A DNA stretch of 64,000 nucleotides from Haloglycomyces albus DSM 45210 (lineage in GTDB: Bacteria > Actinomycetota > Actinomycetes > Mycobacteriales > Micromonosporaceae). The position numbers were made by a program, and so were the translations under genes. The stretch lies in assembly GCF_000527155.1 (NCBI RefSeq), contig NZ_AZUQ01000001.1, positions 607,891 through 671,890 on the forward strand, in the 5' to 3' direction. The notes under the pieces are model-generated. The model was not told the DNA's origin. It did not search any database and worked only from the letters and a program-made list of their open reading frames with translations. Positions 5,390 through 11,407 of this stretch are shown here, one piece after another (within the stretch, counting starts at the first letter, position 1; every line of letters begins with the position of its first letter).

Positions 5390-6769
5390 TTAATGCAGAA
5401 ACGCGAAATACCCGAGGAATACCAGCATCAGTACATAGGTCACCGGGTGGACGTCTCTCCAGCGGCCTCGCGCGACCATGACGAGCGGGTAGAAGAGCAG
5501 CCCCAAGGCGATTCCATTAGAGATGGAGTAGGTCAAGGGCATGGCGATGACGGTCAAGAAGGCCGGGATGGCGTACTCCAGGCGACTCCATTCAATGTTT
5601 CCCAGCGATTTGGCCATCAGAATGCCGACCACGATCAAAGCGGGAGCGGTGACCTGCTCGGTACCGGCGATGACGGCGAATACCGGGAAGAAGAAGGCGG
5701 ACAATCCGAACCATGCCGCCACCACGACCGAGGTCAGGCCGGTACGTCCCCCGGCCGCGACTCCTGCGGTGGACTCGACGTAGGCGGTGGTGGTGGACGT
5801 ACCGATGACCGCTCCCGACATGGTGGCGATGGAGTCGGCACCCAATGCTCGCCCGGCGCGCGGAAGTCGGCCCTGTTTGTCCAAGAGTTCTGCCTGGTTG
5901 GCCACCGCGATGAGGGTCCCGGAGGTATCGAAGAAGTCGACGAACAACATGGTCAGCACCACAATGATCATCTGCGAGGTAAAGGCCTCCGGGAAATGTT
6001 CGATCGCCTGGCCGAATGTTTGGTCCAGGCCACCGGGCAGCGCCACGACCCCCGACGGCGCGTCGACCACTCCCGCGATCACTCCGACTAGAGCGGTCAC
6101 GGCGATCCCGTAGAGAACCGCTCCCCTCCAGCCGATAACCAGAAAGATCACGGTGACGATCAGGCCGAACAGGGCCAATAGGGTCGCCGGCTCCCGGAGG
6201 TCGCCCAGAGCCACAAGGGTGTCGGGGTTCCCGACCACGATACCGGCGTTCTTCATCCCGATGAACGCGATGAACAGTCCGATACCGGCTCCTACGGCCA
6301 GTTTCATCTGCATGGGAATGGCATTGATGACGTATTCGCGAATTCCGGTGATCGCCAGAAGGAAAAACACGATTCCGGAAATCAGCGTTCCCGTCAGAGC
6401 CACCTGCCATGGAATACCCATCCCGAGTACCACGCTGTAGGCGAAGAAGGCATTGAGTCCCATCCCGGGAGCCAAGGCGATCGGGTATTTGGCCCACAGT
6501 CCCATCACCAAGGTTCCCACCACCGCCGACACCGCGGTAGCGGTAAAGACCGCCTGCATGGGCATACCCGCGGCCCCCAGATCCCCTTCGTCTCCCAGAA
6601 CGAGGGGATTGACCGCCAATATATAGGCCATCGCCAAGAAGGTGACCGTACCGGCGAGGACCTCCCTGCCCATATTACTGTGGTGCAGACTCAAACCGAA
6701 ATAGCGATCAATAACGTTGGTGGGCTTTGTATGCTGTTCCGGTGCGGTGGACGCGGCGTCTTCAGCCAT
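5390..6769 (-). CDS. NCS2-family purine permease (AzgA-like)
   Basis: A transporter of about 459 residues with 12-14 hydrophobic segments, of the NCS2/AzgA branch that imports adenine, hypoxanthine and guanine by proton symport. Supporting stretches include YFGLSLHHSN near the N-terminus, the NPLVLGDEGD loop, GLNAFFAYSVVLGMG and the FVDFFDTSGTL motif. I chose the ATG at 6769 because GGAG lies nine bases upstream; ATGs at 6784 and 6817 are alternatives with weaker signals. Exact purine specificity cannot be read from the sequence. An adenosine deaminase at 27.4 kb could feed the same salvage pathway, but they are not linked. Confidence 0.87.
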   Translation of the reverse strand: MAEDAASTAPEQHTKPTNVIDRYFGLSLHHSNMGREVLAGTVTFLAMAYILAVNPLVLGDEGDLGAAGMPMQAVFTATAVSAVVGTLVMGLWAKYPIALAPGMGLNAFFAYSVVLGMGIPWQVALTGTLISGIVFFLLAITGIREYVINAIPMQMKLAVGAGIGLFIAFIGMKNAGIVVGNPDTLVALGDLREPATLLALFGLIVTVIFLVIGWRGAVLYGIAVTALVGVIAGVVDAPSGVVALPGGLDQTFGQAIEHFPEAFTSQMIIVVLTMLFVDFFDTSGTLIAVANQAELLDKQGRLPRAGRALGADSIATMSGAVIGTSTTTAYVESTAGVAAGGRTGLTSVVVAAWFGLSAFFFPVFAVIAGTEQVTAPALIVVGILMAKSLGNIEWSRLEYAIPAFLTVIAMPLTYSISNGIALGLLFYPLVMVARGRWRDVHPVTYVLMLVFLGYFAFLH

Positions 6770-6817
6770 ATCCGGCAACTCCATATCGTTGTGCGGCGCC
6801 CCGGGCAGTAGGCGCAT

Positions 6818-7276: not shown

Positions 7277-7810
7277 CTATTGAGCGCAGTCGGTCGGTTC
7301 ACTTCCCAACACCGACACGCCGCACACGTTGATTTTGCCCGCGCCACGGAGGTCGATGGTGGCCAGTGCGATACCACTGTCGCCGCCAACCGGTTCCTCG
7401 GAAGCGGGAATCGAGTTGTCACAGTTCTGGTTGTCCACCGGTTTGTCGGTGGCGATGTTGATTCCGCATACCTGTATCTGACCGGCGTTACGGGCATCGA
7501 CGTTGACCAGCGAGAGGGCTCCACTCGCCGGTGTCTCCGCTTCCGCGGACTGACGCCGCTCGGCCAATTCGTCACCGAGATAACGCTGGTCGTCACAGGC
7601 CGGATCGGCGGGGGCACCGTAATTCTGCAGTCCGCAGAACGTCGGCATGTCGAACTTGTCCTGTTCGATTTTGACGAGGCGGAAACCGCCCGATTCCTCC
7701 GCTCCCTCGGGAGCGGCCATTGCTGTACCCGCTGTCATGGCCAAGGTTCCCGCGGTCGCAACCGTCAGGGAGGCCACTATCGTCGAGGCAGCTGTGAGAT
7801 TCTTCTGCAT
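7277..7810 (-). CDS. Small secreted protein with CG...C modules (chaplin-like), third member
   Basis: A 177-residue exported protein. It has a Sec signal peptide (MQKNLTAAS, a hydrophobic core, then TAMAA near residue 33). The mature part carries three spaced two-cysteine modules: TFCGLQNYGAPADPACDD, QVCGINIATDKPVDNQNCDN and NVCGVSVLGSEPTDCAQ. The second and third are preceded by an SLVNVD/ALATIDL beta-like segment, as in the two proteins encoded upstream. The modules recall the C-terminal part of chaplins (CG..., ending N-x-C-x-N) but are shorter. ATG at 7810 is chosen because AGAGGA lies five bases upstream. It is the most diverged of the cluster. Function is inferred only: a surface or aerial-structure protein. 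Confidence 0.75.
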   Translation of the reverse strand: MQKNLTAASTIVASLTVATAGTLAMTAGTAMAAPEGAEESGGFRLVKIEQDKFDMPTFCGLQNYGAPADPACDDQRYLGDELAERRQSAEAETPASGALSLVNVDARNAGQIQVCGINIATDKPVDNQNCDNSIPASEEPVGGDSGIALATIDLRGAGKINVCGVSVLGSEPTDCAQ

Positions 7811-7878
7811 AATCATCCTCTTTGCCGGGCAAGTTCGTTGCGTTCGGCTGGCATCGTTCGATTTCCGCTGTAACGACG

Positions 7879-7908
7879 AAGGTGCTTACCGCAATGGGTA
7901 AGCACCTT
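7879..7908 (-). terminator. Hairpin after the 7934-8386 gene
   Basis: Perfect 12-bp stem AAGGTGCTTACC / GGTAAGCACCTT with a 6-base loop, 26 bp after the stop of the minus-strand gene. It separates the third module protein from the two upstream ones. Confidence 0.7.
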
Positions 7909-7933
7909 CCAGTCACAGCGAACAAGTGCCTCT

Positions 7934-8386
7934 TTAGAGGTCACCCATGTCGTTCATGAGCATGTTCTTGTCGCCACCGTTGTCACCGTCACCGTTGCCG
8001 TCGTCCGGAAGTCCGGGGCCCTCGGTGATGTGGTCGGTGTTGTCGCAGTTCTGGTCGACCGACGTGGTGAGCGCGTTGCCACCACAGATCTGCCAGTGAG
8101 CGAAGTCCGAGATGTCGGCGTTGACGACCGACACGTCGCCGGCGTCCACACCGGACTGAGGCCCCTCGCCGATGTGGTCACGGTTGTCACAGTTCTGGCC
8201 GTACGAAGTGGTCAGAACATTGATGCCACAGATCTGCCAGTGCAGAGCGCTGGAGGCATCGATGTTGGCCAGGCTGACCGAACCGGCGTCGACGCCGGAG
8301 TTCTCGGCGGCCATGGCCGGAGTTGCGGCACCCGCGACGGCCAGTCCAGCGGCCGCTACCGCTGCGGTGGAAAGCGTTTTACGCAT
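7934..8386 (-). CDS. Small secreted protein with two HWQICG...QNCDN modules
   Basis: A 150-residue exported protein: signal peptide MRKTLSTAAV...ATPAMAA (about 26 residues), then two tandem modules of about 45 residues. Each reads SGVDAG-x-VS, an N-x-D segment, HWQICG, 11-12 residues and QNCDN, ending in DHI-x-EGP. A low-complexity tail rich in Gly, Asp and Asn follows (GNGDGDNGGDKN). The paired cysteines 12-13 residues apart suggest one disulfide per module. The start has AAAGGA upstream; an in-frame ATG further out lacks a signal-like beginning. Closely related to the neighbour at 8412-8780, so tandem duplication is likely. The role is unknown; the closest analogy I can draw is to chaplins. 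Confidence 0.82.
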   Translation of the reverse strand: MRKTLSTAAVAAAGLAVAGAATPAMAAENSGVDAGSVSLANIDASSALHWQICGINVLTTSYGQNCDNRDHIGEGPQSGVDAGDVSVVNADISDFAHWQICGGNALTTSVDQNCDNTDHITEGPGLPDDGNGDGDNGGDKNMLMNDMGDL

Positions 8387-8411
8387 TGTCAATCCTTTCG
8401 CGAGTAACTTT

Positions 8412-8780
8412 TTACTCGGTGATGTGGTCGCGGTTGTCACAGTTCTGGTCGAGCGACGGGCTCACGGCCACGTTGCCGCCACAGATCTGCCAGTGAGCGG
8501 CGCTCGAGATGTCCAGGTTGCCCACTGAGACTTCACCGGCGTCTACACCGGACTGAGGTCCTTCACCGATGTGGTCACGGTTGTCACAGTTCTGCCCGTA
8601 GGACTGGGCGAAGGCGTTGATGCCACAGATCTGCCAGTGAGCGGCGCTCGAGGCGTCGACGTTCAGCAGGCTGACGTTACCGGCGTCGACGCCGGAGTTC
8701 TCGCCCGCCATGGCCGGAGCGGCAATACCGAGAGCGGCTACACCAGCAGCGGCGGCAGCGGAAGTAACAATCTTGCGCAT
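8412..8780 (-). CDS. Small secreted protein with two HWQICG...QNCDN modules, first copy
   Basis: A 122-residue exported protein starting MRKIVTSAAAAAG with a signal peptide ending near APAMAGE. The mature part is nearly all two modules: SGVDAGNVSLLNVDASS then HWQICGINAFAQSYGQNCDN, followed by SGVDAGEVSVGNLDISS then HWQICGGNVAVSPSLDQNCDN, ending DHITE. AAGGAA lies ten bases before the ATG. Only 25 bp separate its stop from the start of the next module protein, which suggests co-transcription or recent duplication. The repeats are so close at DNA level that the same 13-20 base words recur several times in 8.0-8.7 kb. Confidence 0.82.
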   Translation of the reverse strand: MRKIVTSAAAAAGVAALGIAAPAMAGENSGVDAGNVSLLNVDASSAAHWQICGINAFAQSYGQNCDNRDHIGEGPQSGVDAGEVSVGNLDISSAAHWQICGGNVAVSPSLDQNCDNRDHITE

Positions 8781-8805: not shown

Positions 8806-9669
8806 TCAGTGGGCGGAGGCCCACGCGATTTTTCTGACAATGTCGGCACTTGACCGTGCGCGACGTACTGCTCTGTCGATGACGGATGGAATGAACACGA
8901 GTGTCTTCACATCAATCAGCGATGCCACAGTCATATCCGAATAGGACTGAACTCGTTTTGACATGACTCGTGCGCGGCTGGGAGTCCGACTGTTCACACC
9001 CGCCCGTGCGACTGTTGTGAGCGTTGCGTCCTCAGAGGTCGTCAAGTGGGTACGTGAGTCCCTCGGCGGTGCGACTCTCCTCCGAGTCCGCGTTCCCGAT
9101 ATAAGCCACTCAGCGACCCATGCCATGGGTCGAGCGTGACCGTGGGAATCACTGTCTGCGACAGTGGAGACGACAATGGCGATCGCGGGTTCCAGGTTCC
9201 TGGAGGACCCTGTATACACATTGCCGTCCAAGTCAATGTTCAATGACGTTGTCAGTACCGTGTCGACGCTGGGTTCGCGTCGCAGGTACGGTCGTAGAGA
9301 AAATCCGCCGTGTGCGTCAGAGGCGACCGGTTCAGAAACCGACGACGAGAATCGCGCCCGACCGTGGCCAGACACCCAGTGAACAGACCGAATTCCATGC
9401 GCCTCAAGCTTGTGGCTGCACCGGTGTCGCACAGCCGCCATTTCGGCCAGAATATGGTTGGCAAGCCCAGAGTGGAACTCACTTGACCGTTCACTGATCG
9501 CACGGGACATGGCGATCGATTTCGTTTCGGCACCGATTTCACCGACTGCGTTGGCGTCACACTCAAGGCGATCGGTACGGAACGAAGTCGAAACGATACT
9601 CCTCGGTCGGTACGCGACGCTGTGCCGCCTCGCGCCACATTCAACGCGCCATTGACCGTGGTGAACCAT
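8806..9669 (-). CDS. Hypothetical protein upstream of the module cluster
   Basis: A possible 287-residue protein of unknown function. The best argument for it is the ribosome binding site: AAAGGAGG sits 5-12 bases before the ATG at 9669, one of the strongest in the window. Its stop lies 25 bp before the first module gene, in the same direction. The protein is Arg-, Ser- and Thr-rich, has no signal peptide, no membrane segment and no motif I recognise; codon use is less biased than in neighbouring genes. It could be a regulator or assembly factor for the module proteins, a decayed gene, or spurious. No other frame in this stretch is better. Confidence 0.45.
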   Translation of the reverse strand: MVHHGQWRVECGARRHSVAYRPRSIVSTSFRTDRLECDANAVGEIGAETKSIAMSRAISERSSEFHSGLANHILAEMAAVRHRCSHKLEAHGIRSVHWVSGHGRARFSSSVSEPVASDAHGGFSLRPYLRREPSVDTVLTTSLNIDLDGNVYTGSSRNLEPAIAIVVSTVADSDSHGHARPMAWVAEWLISGTRTRRRVAPPRDSRTHLTTSEDATLTTVARAGVNSRTPSRARVMSKRVQSYSDMTVASLIDVKTLVFIPSVIDRAVRRARSSADIVRKIAWASAH

Positions 9670-9958
9670 TCCGCCTCCTTTCCTTTGATCGCAGTGACAT
9701 TCCGACGAATTCACTCGGTCCTCATCGAACCGCTTAGGGCGTTGTGCCCCTTGCACTAAATAGAACGAACCACGGGAAAAGGGGGATACGGCTGAAATAG
9801 GATTTTTTGGCGCATAATAGGTGAAATCTCCTCTTGTCGTTTAAACATCGCCCACCACCTGGGGTTTCGCCGGCGATCCTCGTGCCCGAGGGTGGCGATG
9901 CGATTACAGAATATGTTGTATTCCACAACCACACGTGTCGGGCGTATAACACGACAAA

Positions 9959-9995
9959 GGCGGTCGTGAGCCCAGAAATTCGACTCACGACCGCC
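9959..9995 (-). terminator. Hairpin after the secreted protease gene
   Basis: Perfect 12-bp stem GGCGGTCGTGAG / CTCACGACCGCC with a 13-base loop, 50 bp beyond the protease stop codon. Confidence 0.65.
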
Positions 9996-10045
9996 CTAAA
10001 GGGACTGTATTGGATCAGTAAACGGACGTTACCTGATTTTGCCGC

Positions 10046-11317
10046 CTAGATATGATCCTTGATCTCCGGATAGATCAGGTGCGAGCTGACACCCGAATTG
10101 GGGCATCCCCCGAAATGATGTAGCGCGACGACCTTATGCGATTGACTCGACAGCACCGGCGACCCGGAGGAGCCGAACTCGGTGTCGCAGTAATAGGCCA
10201 CGTCCGTGCCCTCGATGTAGCCGTCATACCCGACCCCCGAGACAACGCAGTTACCGCCGTCAGAGGACGATTCCACCGCGATTTCCGTCGGTCGCCCACC
10301 CGGATGCTGCGGGATGTAGATCTCCTCTCCACGTCGCGTCCTGTCCTTCTCCAATTCGAGATGGCCGAGGTCGTCGACGGCGGAGAAGTCGCTGACCGAG
10401 AACAGGGTGTAGTCCAGGTTCCGATTGGTCTTGATGACCGACTGACCTCGCACCTTTGTCGGAGTCCGAGGAGTCGTATTGGTACACGAACGACAGTCGT
10501 AGTCGAACCACACCTCGGTCCGTTTGGCCTCCCAATCCTGACTGAAACAGTGATTGTTGGTCAGCAGGCGATTGCGCTCGCTGACCTTGAAGGCGGTGCA
10601 GAGGACGGTACCGTCGACCAACAGTCTGGCGACGGGATCGGTCTGTCGCACCATGGTGGGATGGCTGTCCTCATAGCACGGTGCGGGACGTCGATCGACC
10701 GTGCCGCAGTTGCTTTCCGGGCTACGGGTGGAAGCGGCGTGATCGAGCATGATGTCGTCGATCGCTTTCCGGCCGTATCCGTAGGCGACCTCGTCGATTG
10801 AGACGCCCAGATCCTTCGGAGTCACCGACGGCTCGTGGACCGACAACTCCACCAGGGCCCGATCGCCCGTCACCGACATCGCCCAATCGTCGACGACCGT
10901 TTCGGTATAGGTGTGCACCTCCGAACGGTCCGGATTGTAGACGGTCAGCGAATCGCCGTCCATGAGCGCCAATTTTTCGAAATGCACCTTGACGTAGGAG
11001 GCGCCTTCCTCAACGAATTCCAGTACCCGGTTTCCATCGGAGTACTCGTCATAGTCCAGAGACTTATCGACCGAAATCCTTTCTCCGACCTGGATGACGG
11101 AGGAGAGGGCGTCGTCGACCTCCACCGAGTCCACCGAATCGGTGATCCGCTCTCCCACAGCCACATCGAATCCGAGACGAAGGGCCACAGCGTTCGGAGT
11201 CACCGTCACTGCCACGATCAGAGCCACGACCGCCGCAAGCGAAGAGACAACTATCTTTCTCCTCCGACGGCGCGACGAGCTCGGCGTGGACCCGGTTCCA
11301 GGTATCTGTGAAGGCAC
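10046..11317 (-). CDS. Secreted trypsin-like serine protease
   Basis: A 423-residue extracellular endopeptidase. After an Arg-rich N-terminus (RRRRRK) there is one hydrophobic signal or anchor segment, then a propeptide-like region of about 150 residues and a chymotrypsin-fold catalytic domain. The triad is visible: His256 in LLTNNHC, Asp302 in NLDYTL and Ser384 in FGSSGSP, the last resembling glutamyl-endopeptidase and other bacterial S1 proteases. Eight or more cysteines in the catalytic half suggest disulfides. GTG at 11317 is preferred because AAGGGGGAG lies just before it; an ATG ten codons upstream has no such site. Candidate substrates nearby are the module proteins, but this is only proximity. 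Confidence 0.87.
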   Translation of the reverse strand: MPSQIPGTGSTPSSSRRRRRKIVVSSLAAVVALIVAVTVTPNAVALRLGFDVAVGERITDSVDSVEVDDALSSVIQVGERISVDKSLDYDEYSDGNRVLEFVEEGASYVKVHFEKLALMDGDSLTVYNPDRSEVHTYTETVVDDWAMSVTGDRALVELSVHEPSVTPKDLGVSIDEVAYGYGRKAIDDIMLDHAASTRSPESNCGTVDRRPAPCYEDSHPTMVRQTDPVARLLVDGTVLCTAFKVSERNRLLTNNHCFSQDWEAKRTEVWFDYDCRSCTNTTPRTPTKVRGQSVIKTNRNLDYTLFSVSDFSAVDDLGHLELEKDRTRRGEEIYIPQHPGGRPTEIAVESSSDGGNCVVSGVGYDGYIEGTDVAYYCDTEFGSSGSPVLSSQSHKVVALHHFGGCPNSGVSSHLIYPEIKDHI

Positions 11318-11407
11318 AATCTCCCCCTTGACACGATGATGATTCATCGGTTCAACGATTCACTGAGGCCTGGGTTACTTGACGCGACGACTTTTCACCC
11401 ATACGAA

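Follow-up and report, generated by a model that had tools for sequence, protein, structure and literature searches.

Genes A, B, and C of the window, i.e., the whole stretch of 64,000 nucleotides from Haloglycomyces albus DSM 45210 analyzed here, encode exported proteins made of tandemly repeated modules that form an undescribed family, unnamed in Pfam and NCBIfam and strongly conserved in Glycomyces. On balance, we lean towards regarding these proteins as surface-coat proteins of a class of their own, present in lineages that form an aerial mycelium. How aerial hyphae and spores are coated outside Streptomyces is little known; the available part of a review reports chaplin-like genes in a few non-Streptomyces lineages and obvious rodlins only in streptomycetes (PMC4255298). 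The window revealed a G+C content of 59.5% in a genome of one contig (3,535,419 bases); the portion of the source at hand gives 60.4 mol% for Haloglycomyces (PMC8289206). The array comprises the following features (positions in the window):

8412..8780, minus strand: gene A, exported protein of 122 aa with two modules (Cys spacing 13 and 14)
8556..8699, minus strand: gene A, module 1 (residues 28-75, C52/C65; 48-residue period)
8415..8555, minus strand: gene A, module 2 (residues 76-122, C100/C114)
7934..8386, minus strand: gene B, exported protein of 150 aa with two modules and an acidic, Gly/Asn-rich tail
8024..8302, minus strand: gene B, modules 1 and 2 (residues 29-121, C53/C66 and C101/C114)
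7277..7816, minus strand: gene C, exported protein of 179 aa with three diverged modules (Cys spacing 13, 15, and 12), at the end of the array

An earlier note on this DNA had proposed three adjacent exported module proteins, two of them near-duplicates and one diverged with three modules. This description was borne out, since the genes were found with two, two, and three modules, A and B being 77% identical and C diverged. The stop codon of A and the likely ATG of B at 8386 are 25 bases apart, and by inspection all three proteins start with a Lys/Arg-plus-Ala-rich signal peptide ending in AMA. Each module in A, B, and C contains two cysteines, the first one followed by Gly, and the A-type module of about 48 residues reads SL-x-N-x-D-A-S, a beta-prone stretch, then HWQ-I-C-G, a short loop, and Q-x-C-D-N. 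Other details of the note held in part. The HWQICG start occurs in A and B only, C having MPTFCG, IQVCG, and INVCG instead, and the Cys-Cys spacing of 13, found in both modules of B, is the commonest form, x(11), but not a rule, as it ranges from 12 to 15 across A, B, and C. Little besides modules follows the signal peptide, with the exception of B, whose acidic, Gly/Asn-rich tail of 29 residues is free of modules. In the arrays of relatives, the third gene is often acidic-tailed as well (e.g., DKGADQGDY), and the counterpart of gene C also sits last.

Database searches placed the three proteins in no named family. Pfam resulted in no family up to E 10 for A, B, or C, so that the comparison with the chaplin family (DUF320/PF03777) suggested in the note gave no match for any of them; NCBIfam yielded nothing above cut-off but noise, and PHROGs no match better than E 0.04. 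A sequence search of the PDB revealed nothing meaningful (best E 0.35), as did that with the genome's own chaplin up to E 10, a plasmid search no match for protein A, and searches of the open-licence PubMed Central literature listed no paper describing the module family.

A search with protein A matched 5 of 61 genomes, G016 only weakly. Using the module profile (E <= 1e-3), 27 of 354 genomes of the same family were matched, namely the own genome, Actinorhabdospora filicis (G007), Phytomonospora endophytica (G025), 21 genomes of Glycomyces (genus g12), G186, G374, and G199. G186 matched with E 8e-11 and harbors the modules HVPVCG and HLPICG, and G374 carries a short, single, real module (E 6.7e-4). 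The match in G199 was rejected as a false positive, since the ORF concerned is unrelated and contains HWQRIG but lacks CG. A class-wide sample gave two matches among 394 genomes, the own genome and a weak one. A scan of named genomes led to 24 loci, all from Glycomyces, Phytomonospora, or Actinorhabdospora. Within Glycomyces, modules were present in 21 of 22 genomes (a total taken from the chaplin search of the same 354-genome set), the exception, G175, being a 3.3 Mb draft in 360 contigs. Inspection of further weak matches revealed no such module in the ORFs of two from the own genome (L004, L005) and none in the frames examined of G513, which like G498 is a weak class-sample match.

Proteins of relatives contain two, three, or four modules with a period of mostly 48 residues. 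An alignment of 56 proteins showed D, W, Q, C, G, N, and the second Cys (CDN) to be invariant and His nearly so, and profile-profile comparison revealed A-type and C-type modules to be clearly related (Prob 99.5%). In all six pairs tested, dN was lower than dS, with ratios of about 0.2 to 0.6, showing that the modules are under purifying selection. The module pattern is not a product of chance, because orthologous arrays in many species, most with three to four genes, contain these modules as well.

A second, long-loop form was found in other genera of the same GTDB family, and as far as can be judged from sequence, it is an undescribed family distantly related to the short-loop modules. In G016, two neighboring exported proteins carry seven WQxCG modules with a spacing of 24. 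Comparison of the long-loop with the short-loop profile resulted in a probability of 93.6% (E 2e-7) and a score of 33.4, which none of 150 CG- and C-keeping shuffles reached (shuffle maximum 23.1). Both forms show tandem modules and, by inspection, signal peptides, and we refer to them together as the WQxCG superfamily. Long-loop matches occurred in 21 of the 354 same-family genomes, with one weak match in 197 genomes of the class. In five loci, with long-loop proteins noted at L027:6548-8500 and L143-L146 in several genera, the long-loop site occupies a fixed housekeeping position by lepA, a hemW-like gene, hrcA, and dnaJ (names by inspection).

Gene order was read at 25 loci with a home-made ORF caller, family names being assigned by inspection and several loci being cut by contig ends. 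In the commonest Glycomyces order, a glutamine-synthetase-like gene and a gene termed c4 (19 loci each) come before the module genes, which were present at 24 loci counting the window. A glycoside-hydrolase-like gene follows at 20 loci, then genes for exported proteins of cell-wall type, one or two in number, at 18, and at 9 of the 25, again counting the window, a permease of the NCS2/AzgA type. Of this order, the window retains the module genes and the permease. As some Glycomyces loci also carry a permease homolog downstream of the array in the same orientation, the gene order suggests that the window array and the Glycomyces arrays occupy an orthologous locus. Two further features belong to this region:

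5390..6817, minus strand: NCS2/AzgA-type permease downstream of the array (cluster c6, name by inspection)
7865..7920, minus strand: long hairpin between B and C, a 13-bp stem continued by a 9-bp stem, without a T run

The hairpin has a folding energy of -38 kcal/mol (z -8.3), and none of 200 shuffles was as stable. The terminator scan did not report it; it is possibly a terminator or an mRNA end. A scan of the array for sigma-70-like promoters found none, and visual comparison of the DNA upstream in relatives and in the window showed no common block except near the start codon.

The c4 product, a secreted Ala/Val-rich protein encoded upstream of the array in relatives, was detected in 4 of 61 of these (G007, Glycomyces sp. 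TRM65418 (G011), G025, and G013), with Phytomonospora and Actinorhabdospora harboring a more distant form of 24% identity and the same APD ending. A homology search did not find c4 in the own genome, nor did a search upstream of A reveal a remnant (one match with E 1.8 in 8850-10046; best E in the window 0.037, located elsewhere). At 8850-10046, where relatives have c4, about 1.2 kb lie without a convincing gene, and the next gene upstream (10046-11347) encodes by eye a secreted trypsin-type serine protease with GSSGSPV near its C terminus.

A c4 homolog was also identified by hmmsearch (2.1e-10) in G374, which we take to be Stackebrandtia nassauensis; of 200 shuffled copies, not one was reported at E <= 10. 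The homolog is followed by three near-identical exported Cys proteins and the 68-residue single-module protein, and a long chaplin lies about 2 kb off. The proximity to developmental genes raised in the note was seen in this one case, and weakly. The three Cys proteins (L114:4853-6153) share SILSDxCxGNWNGP, occupy, after the c4 homolog, the position that the module array has elsewhere, and matched neither Pfam up to E 1 nor NCBIfam above cut-off. In G013, presumably Natronoglycomyces albus, the c4 homolog is kept with no detectable module array (L113:6059-7546).

The genome itself encodes a genuine chaplin elsewhere, near 1224.4-1225.2 kb of C1 (L018:1417-2250), with four PF03777 modules (E 1.1e-34) and a Cys spacing of 14; its match served as the positive control of the Pfam search. 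Across the family, 140 of the 354 genomes and 27 of the 44 genera were positive for PF03777. Strong module matches (E below 1e-8) came from 25 genomes with the short-loop form and 19 different ones with the long-loop form; all 44 were chaplin-positive, compared with 96 of the 310 others, counts that ignore shared ancestry. By genus, strong modules occurred in 11 of 27 chaplin genera and in 0 of 17 without chaplins (Fisher P 0.003, likewise ignoring shared ancestry). The weak matches G199, G374, G185, and G030 were left out of these counts; only G199 is chaplin-negative. Since 16 of the 27 chaplin genera have no strong modules, the link is one-way. G013 also possesses a chaplin and no module match; the part of the source available describes Natronoglycomyces albus as having a 3.94 Mb chromosome, two plasmids, and an aerial mycelium (PMC8289206). 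Taken with the 16 genera, this means that the modules are dispensable for that lifestyle.

The earlier note had likened the modules to shortened chaplin domains, set apart from chaplins by a spacing of 13 rather than about 18. Neither point was confirmed. A widened set, to which all 22 loci (20 from relatives, two from Streptomyces) contributed, comprised 58 chaplin modules; 30 of them have a spacing of 14, 4 of 15, 12 of 16, 8 of 17, and 4 of 18. Streptomyces supplied 4 of the 58, and by eye two short Streptomyces chaplins have a spacing of 18. As same-family chaplins thus have spacings of 14-17, a short spacing is no distinguishing mark, and its use as a sign of chaplin kinship is corrected accordingly. 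Comparison of 155 modules with these 58 resulted in a probability of 3.0%, with 20 of 150 CG- and C-keeping shuffles reaching the score. For A-type modules alone the probability was 0.7%, and for the long-loop form 0.8% (59 of 150 shuffles), while the positive control, spacing-14 chaplins against the remaining ones, reached 99.7%. The first chaplin set (23 modules from 10 of 20 loci, plus strand only), which was also used in the rodlin and long-loop comparisons, led to the same outcome (7.0%; 3.05% without gappy columns; local score reached by 22 and global score by 9 of 150 shuffles). By alignment, the chaplin segment GN(Q/S/T)..AP[IV]Q.P[IV] before the first Cys is absent, A-type modules having AG..SL.N.DAS..AHWQ there. 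With no Pfam match and a whole-family profile signal at the noise of the shuffles, chaplin membership was rejected, and at the sequence level the view that the modules are recognizable as shortened chaplins is not supported.

They might still be true chaplins in which the CG...C-x-N core was inherited and the remainder drifted beyond recognition. The shared CG start, spacings of 12-15 next to 14-17, and the occurrence in the same genomes and genera fit this explanation, as does a weak signal from the 21 C-type and other modules, which alone reached 24% over 11 columns (matched by 4 of 150 shuffles) and 31-44% with the first set. Since A-type and C-type modules are clearly kin, this signal keeps a very remote chaplin kinship among the rivals, but given the noise-level result for the whole profile and for the A-type and long-loop forms, the missing GNQ..AP[IV]Q.P segment, and a positive control that was readily recovered, we consider it unlikely.

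A different function would apply if the conserved His, Asp, Asn, and Cys residues held a metal ion or small ligand, making the proteins extracellular scavengers or sensors. H, D, and CDN-x-DH are indeed nearly invariant in A-type modules, a stricter conservation than a simple structural repeat would seem to require. However, the His before WQ is gone in many C-type (AKWQVCG, QIQVCG) and long-loop modules, where C and G stay, no metal regulator gene was recognizable by eye in the conserved array, and tandem expansion fits a structural protein better, so that binding proteins appear distinctly improbable. Still more doubtful, in our estimation, is a role as precursors from which secreted antimicrobial or signaling peptides are cut. 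Small size, a disulfide-type pattern, secretion, tandem repeats, and linkers between modules would suit such precursors, but modules and paralogs have stayed closely alike across tens of genomes, and dN was below dS in all six pairs, where toxins would be expected to diversify. Neither an immunity nor a processing gene was recognizable by eye in the conserved neighborhood, and the lack of any PHROGs match better than E 0.04 also speaks against it.

Our preference for surface-coat proteins builds on the export signals recognized by inspection, the module architecture, the tandem array, the conservation of the locus, purifying selection, the long-loop subfamily, and strong matches confined to chaplin-bearing genomes among those searched. 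The note had itself considered surface-coat proteins of another lineage; exported arrays in Glycomyces and relatives agree with this as to occurrence, and the function is one we infer. A, B, and C would be exported structural proteins built of modules of about 48 residues, probably of beta structure, in which the two cysteines would form an intramodule disulfide closing a small loop. Several paralogs, presumably made together from one tandem locus, would join on the outer side of the cell wall into a coat or a layer of fibers covering the hyphae and spores of actinomycetes like Glycomyces. There they would act alongside the genome's true chaplin without being chaplins themselves. Two AlphaFold2 models, both of low confidence (pLDDT 49), gave no usable fold; the four-module one was all-beta with strands repeating per module and is too uncertain to use.

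Several observations count against surface-coat proteins. Besides the low confidence of both models and the dispensability seen from G013 and the 16 chaplin genera, partner c4 is missing from the own genome. Unlike a classical hydrophobic coat, moreover, A, B, and C are acidic and hydrophilic in their mature form (GRAVY -0.38, -0.47, and -0.35, respectively), although the own chaplin is negative as well (-0.19), one short chaplin being at +0.05. Given this composition, such a layer could just as well be hydrated or co-assembling as water-repellent. More speculatively, the modules could constitute a third class of actinobacterial exoskeleton protein that arose independently of chaplins and rodlins, with disulfide-stapled tandem beta modules stacking into fibers, two mutually exclusive loop-length subfamilies across chaplin-bearing genera of Micromonosporaceae/Glycomycetaceae, a conserved secreted partner c4, and another Cys array replacing them in Stackebrandtia. 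We put this forward tentatively, as an idea that may well prove wrong.

Compared with known systems, the module proteins resemble chaplins (PF03777, ChpA-C) in being exported, in their tandem modules with a CG followed by a second Cys, and in their presence in the same genomes including the own one; they differ in lacking a PF03777 match and the GNQ..AP[IV]Q.P segment and perhaps in being more hydrophilic. The rodlins RdlA/RdlB of Streptomyces are likewise small and exported, with two Cys and an SLV...QQC.EN flavor, but consist of a single unit rather than tandem modules, with the Cys far apart. Rodlin and chaplin genes adjoin in 2 of 6 loci fetched. Membership in the rodlins was rejected, since nine annotated Streptomyces rodlins reached a profile similarity of only 2.9% to the modules and 0.4% to a two-module alignment. 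CwpA and CwpB of Actinoplanes missouriensis, a relative in the same wider lineage, are also non-chaplin surface proteins and take part in morphogenesis; they are anchored by sortase E, and the excerpt of the source mentions no tandem Cys module (PMC13251363). The long-loop WQxCG proteins, finally, are longer than the short-loop ones, differ from them by the spacing of 24 in the seven modules, and never shared a strong-match genome with them, but have in common homology over SL..WQ.CG, export as judged by inspection, and tandem modules encoded in one or two adjacent genes.
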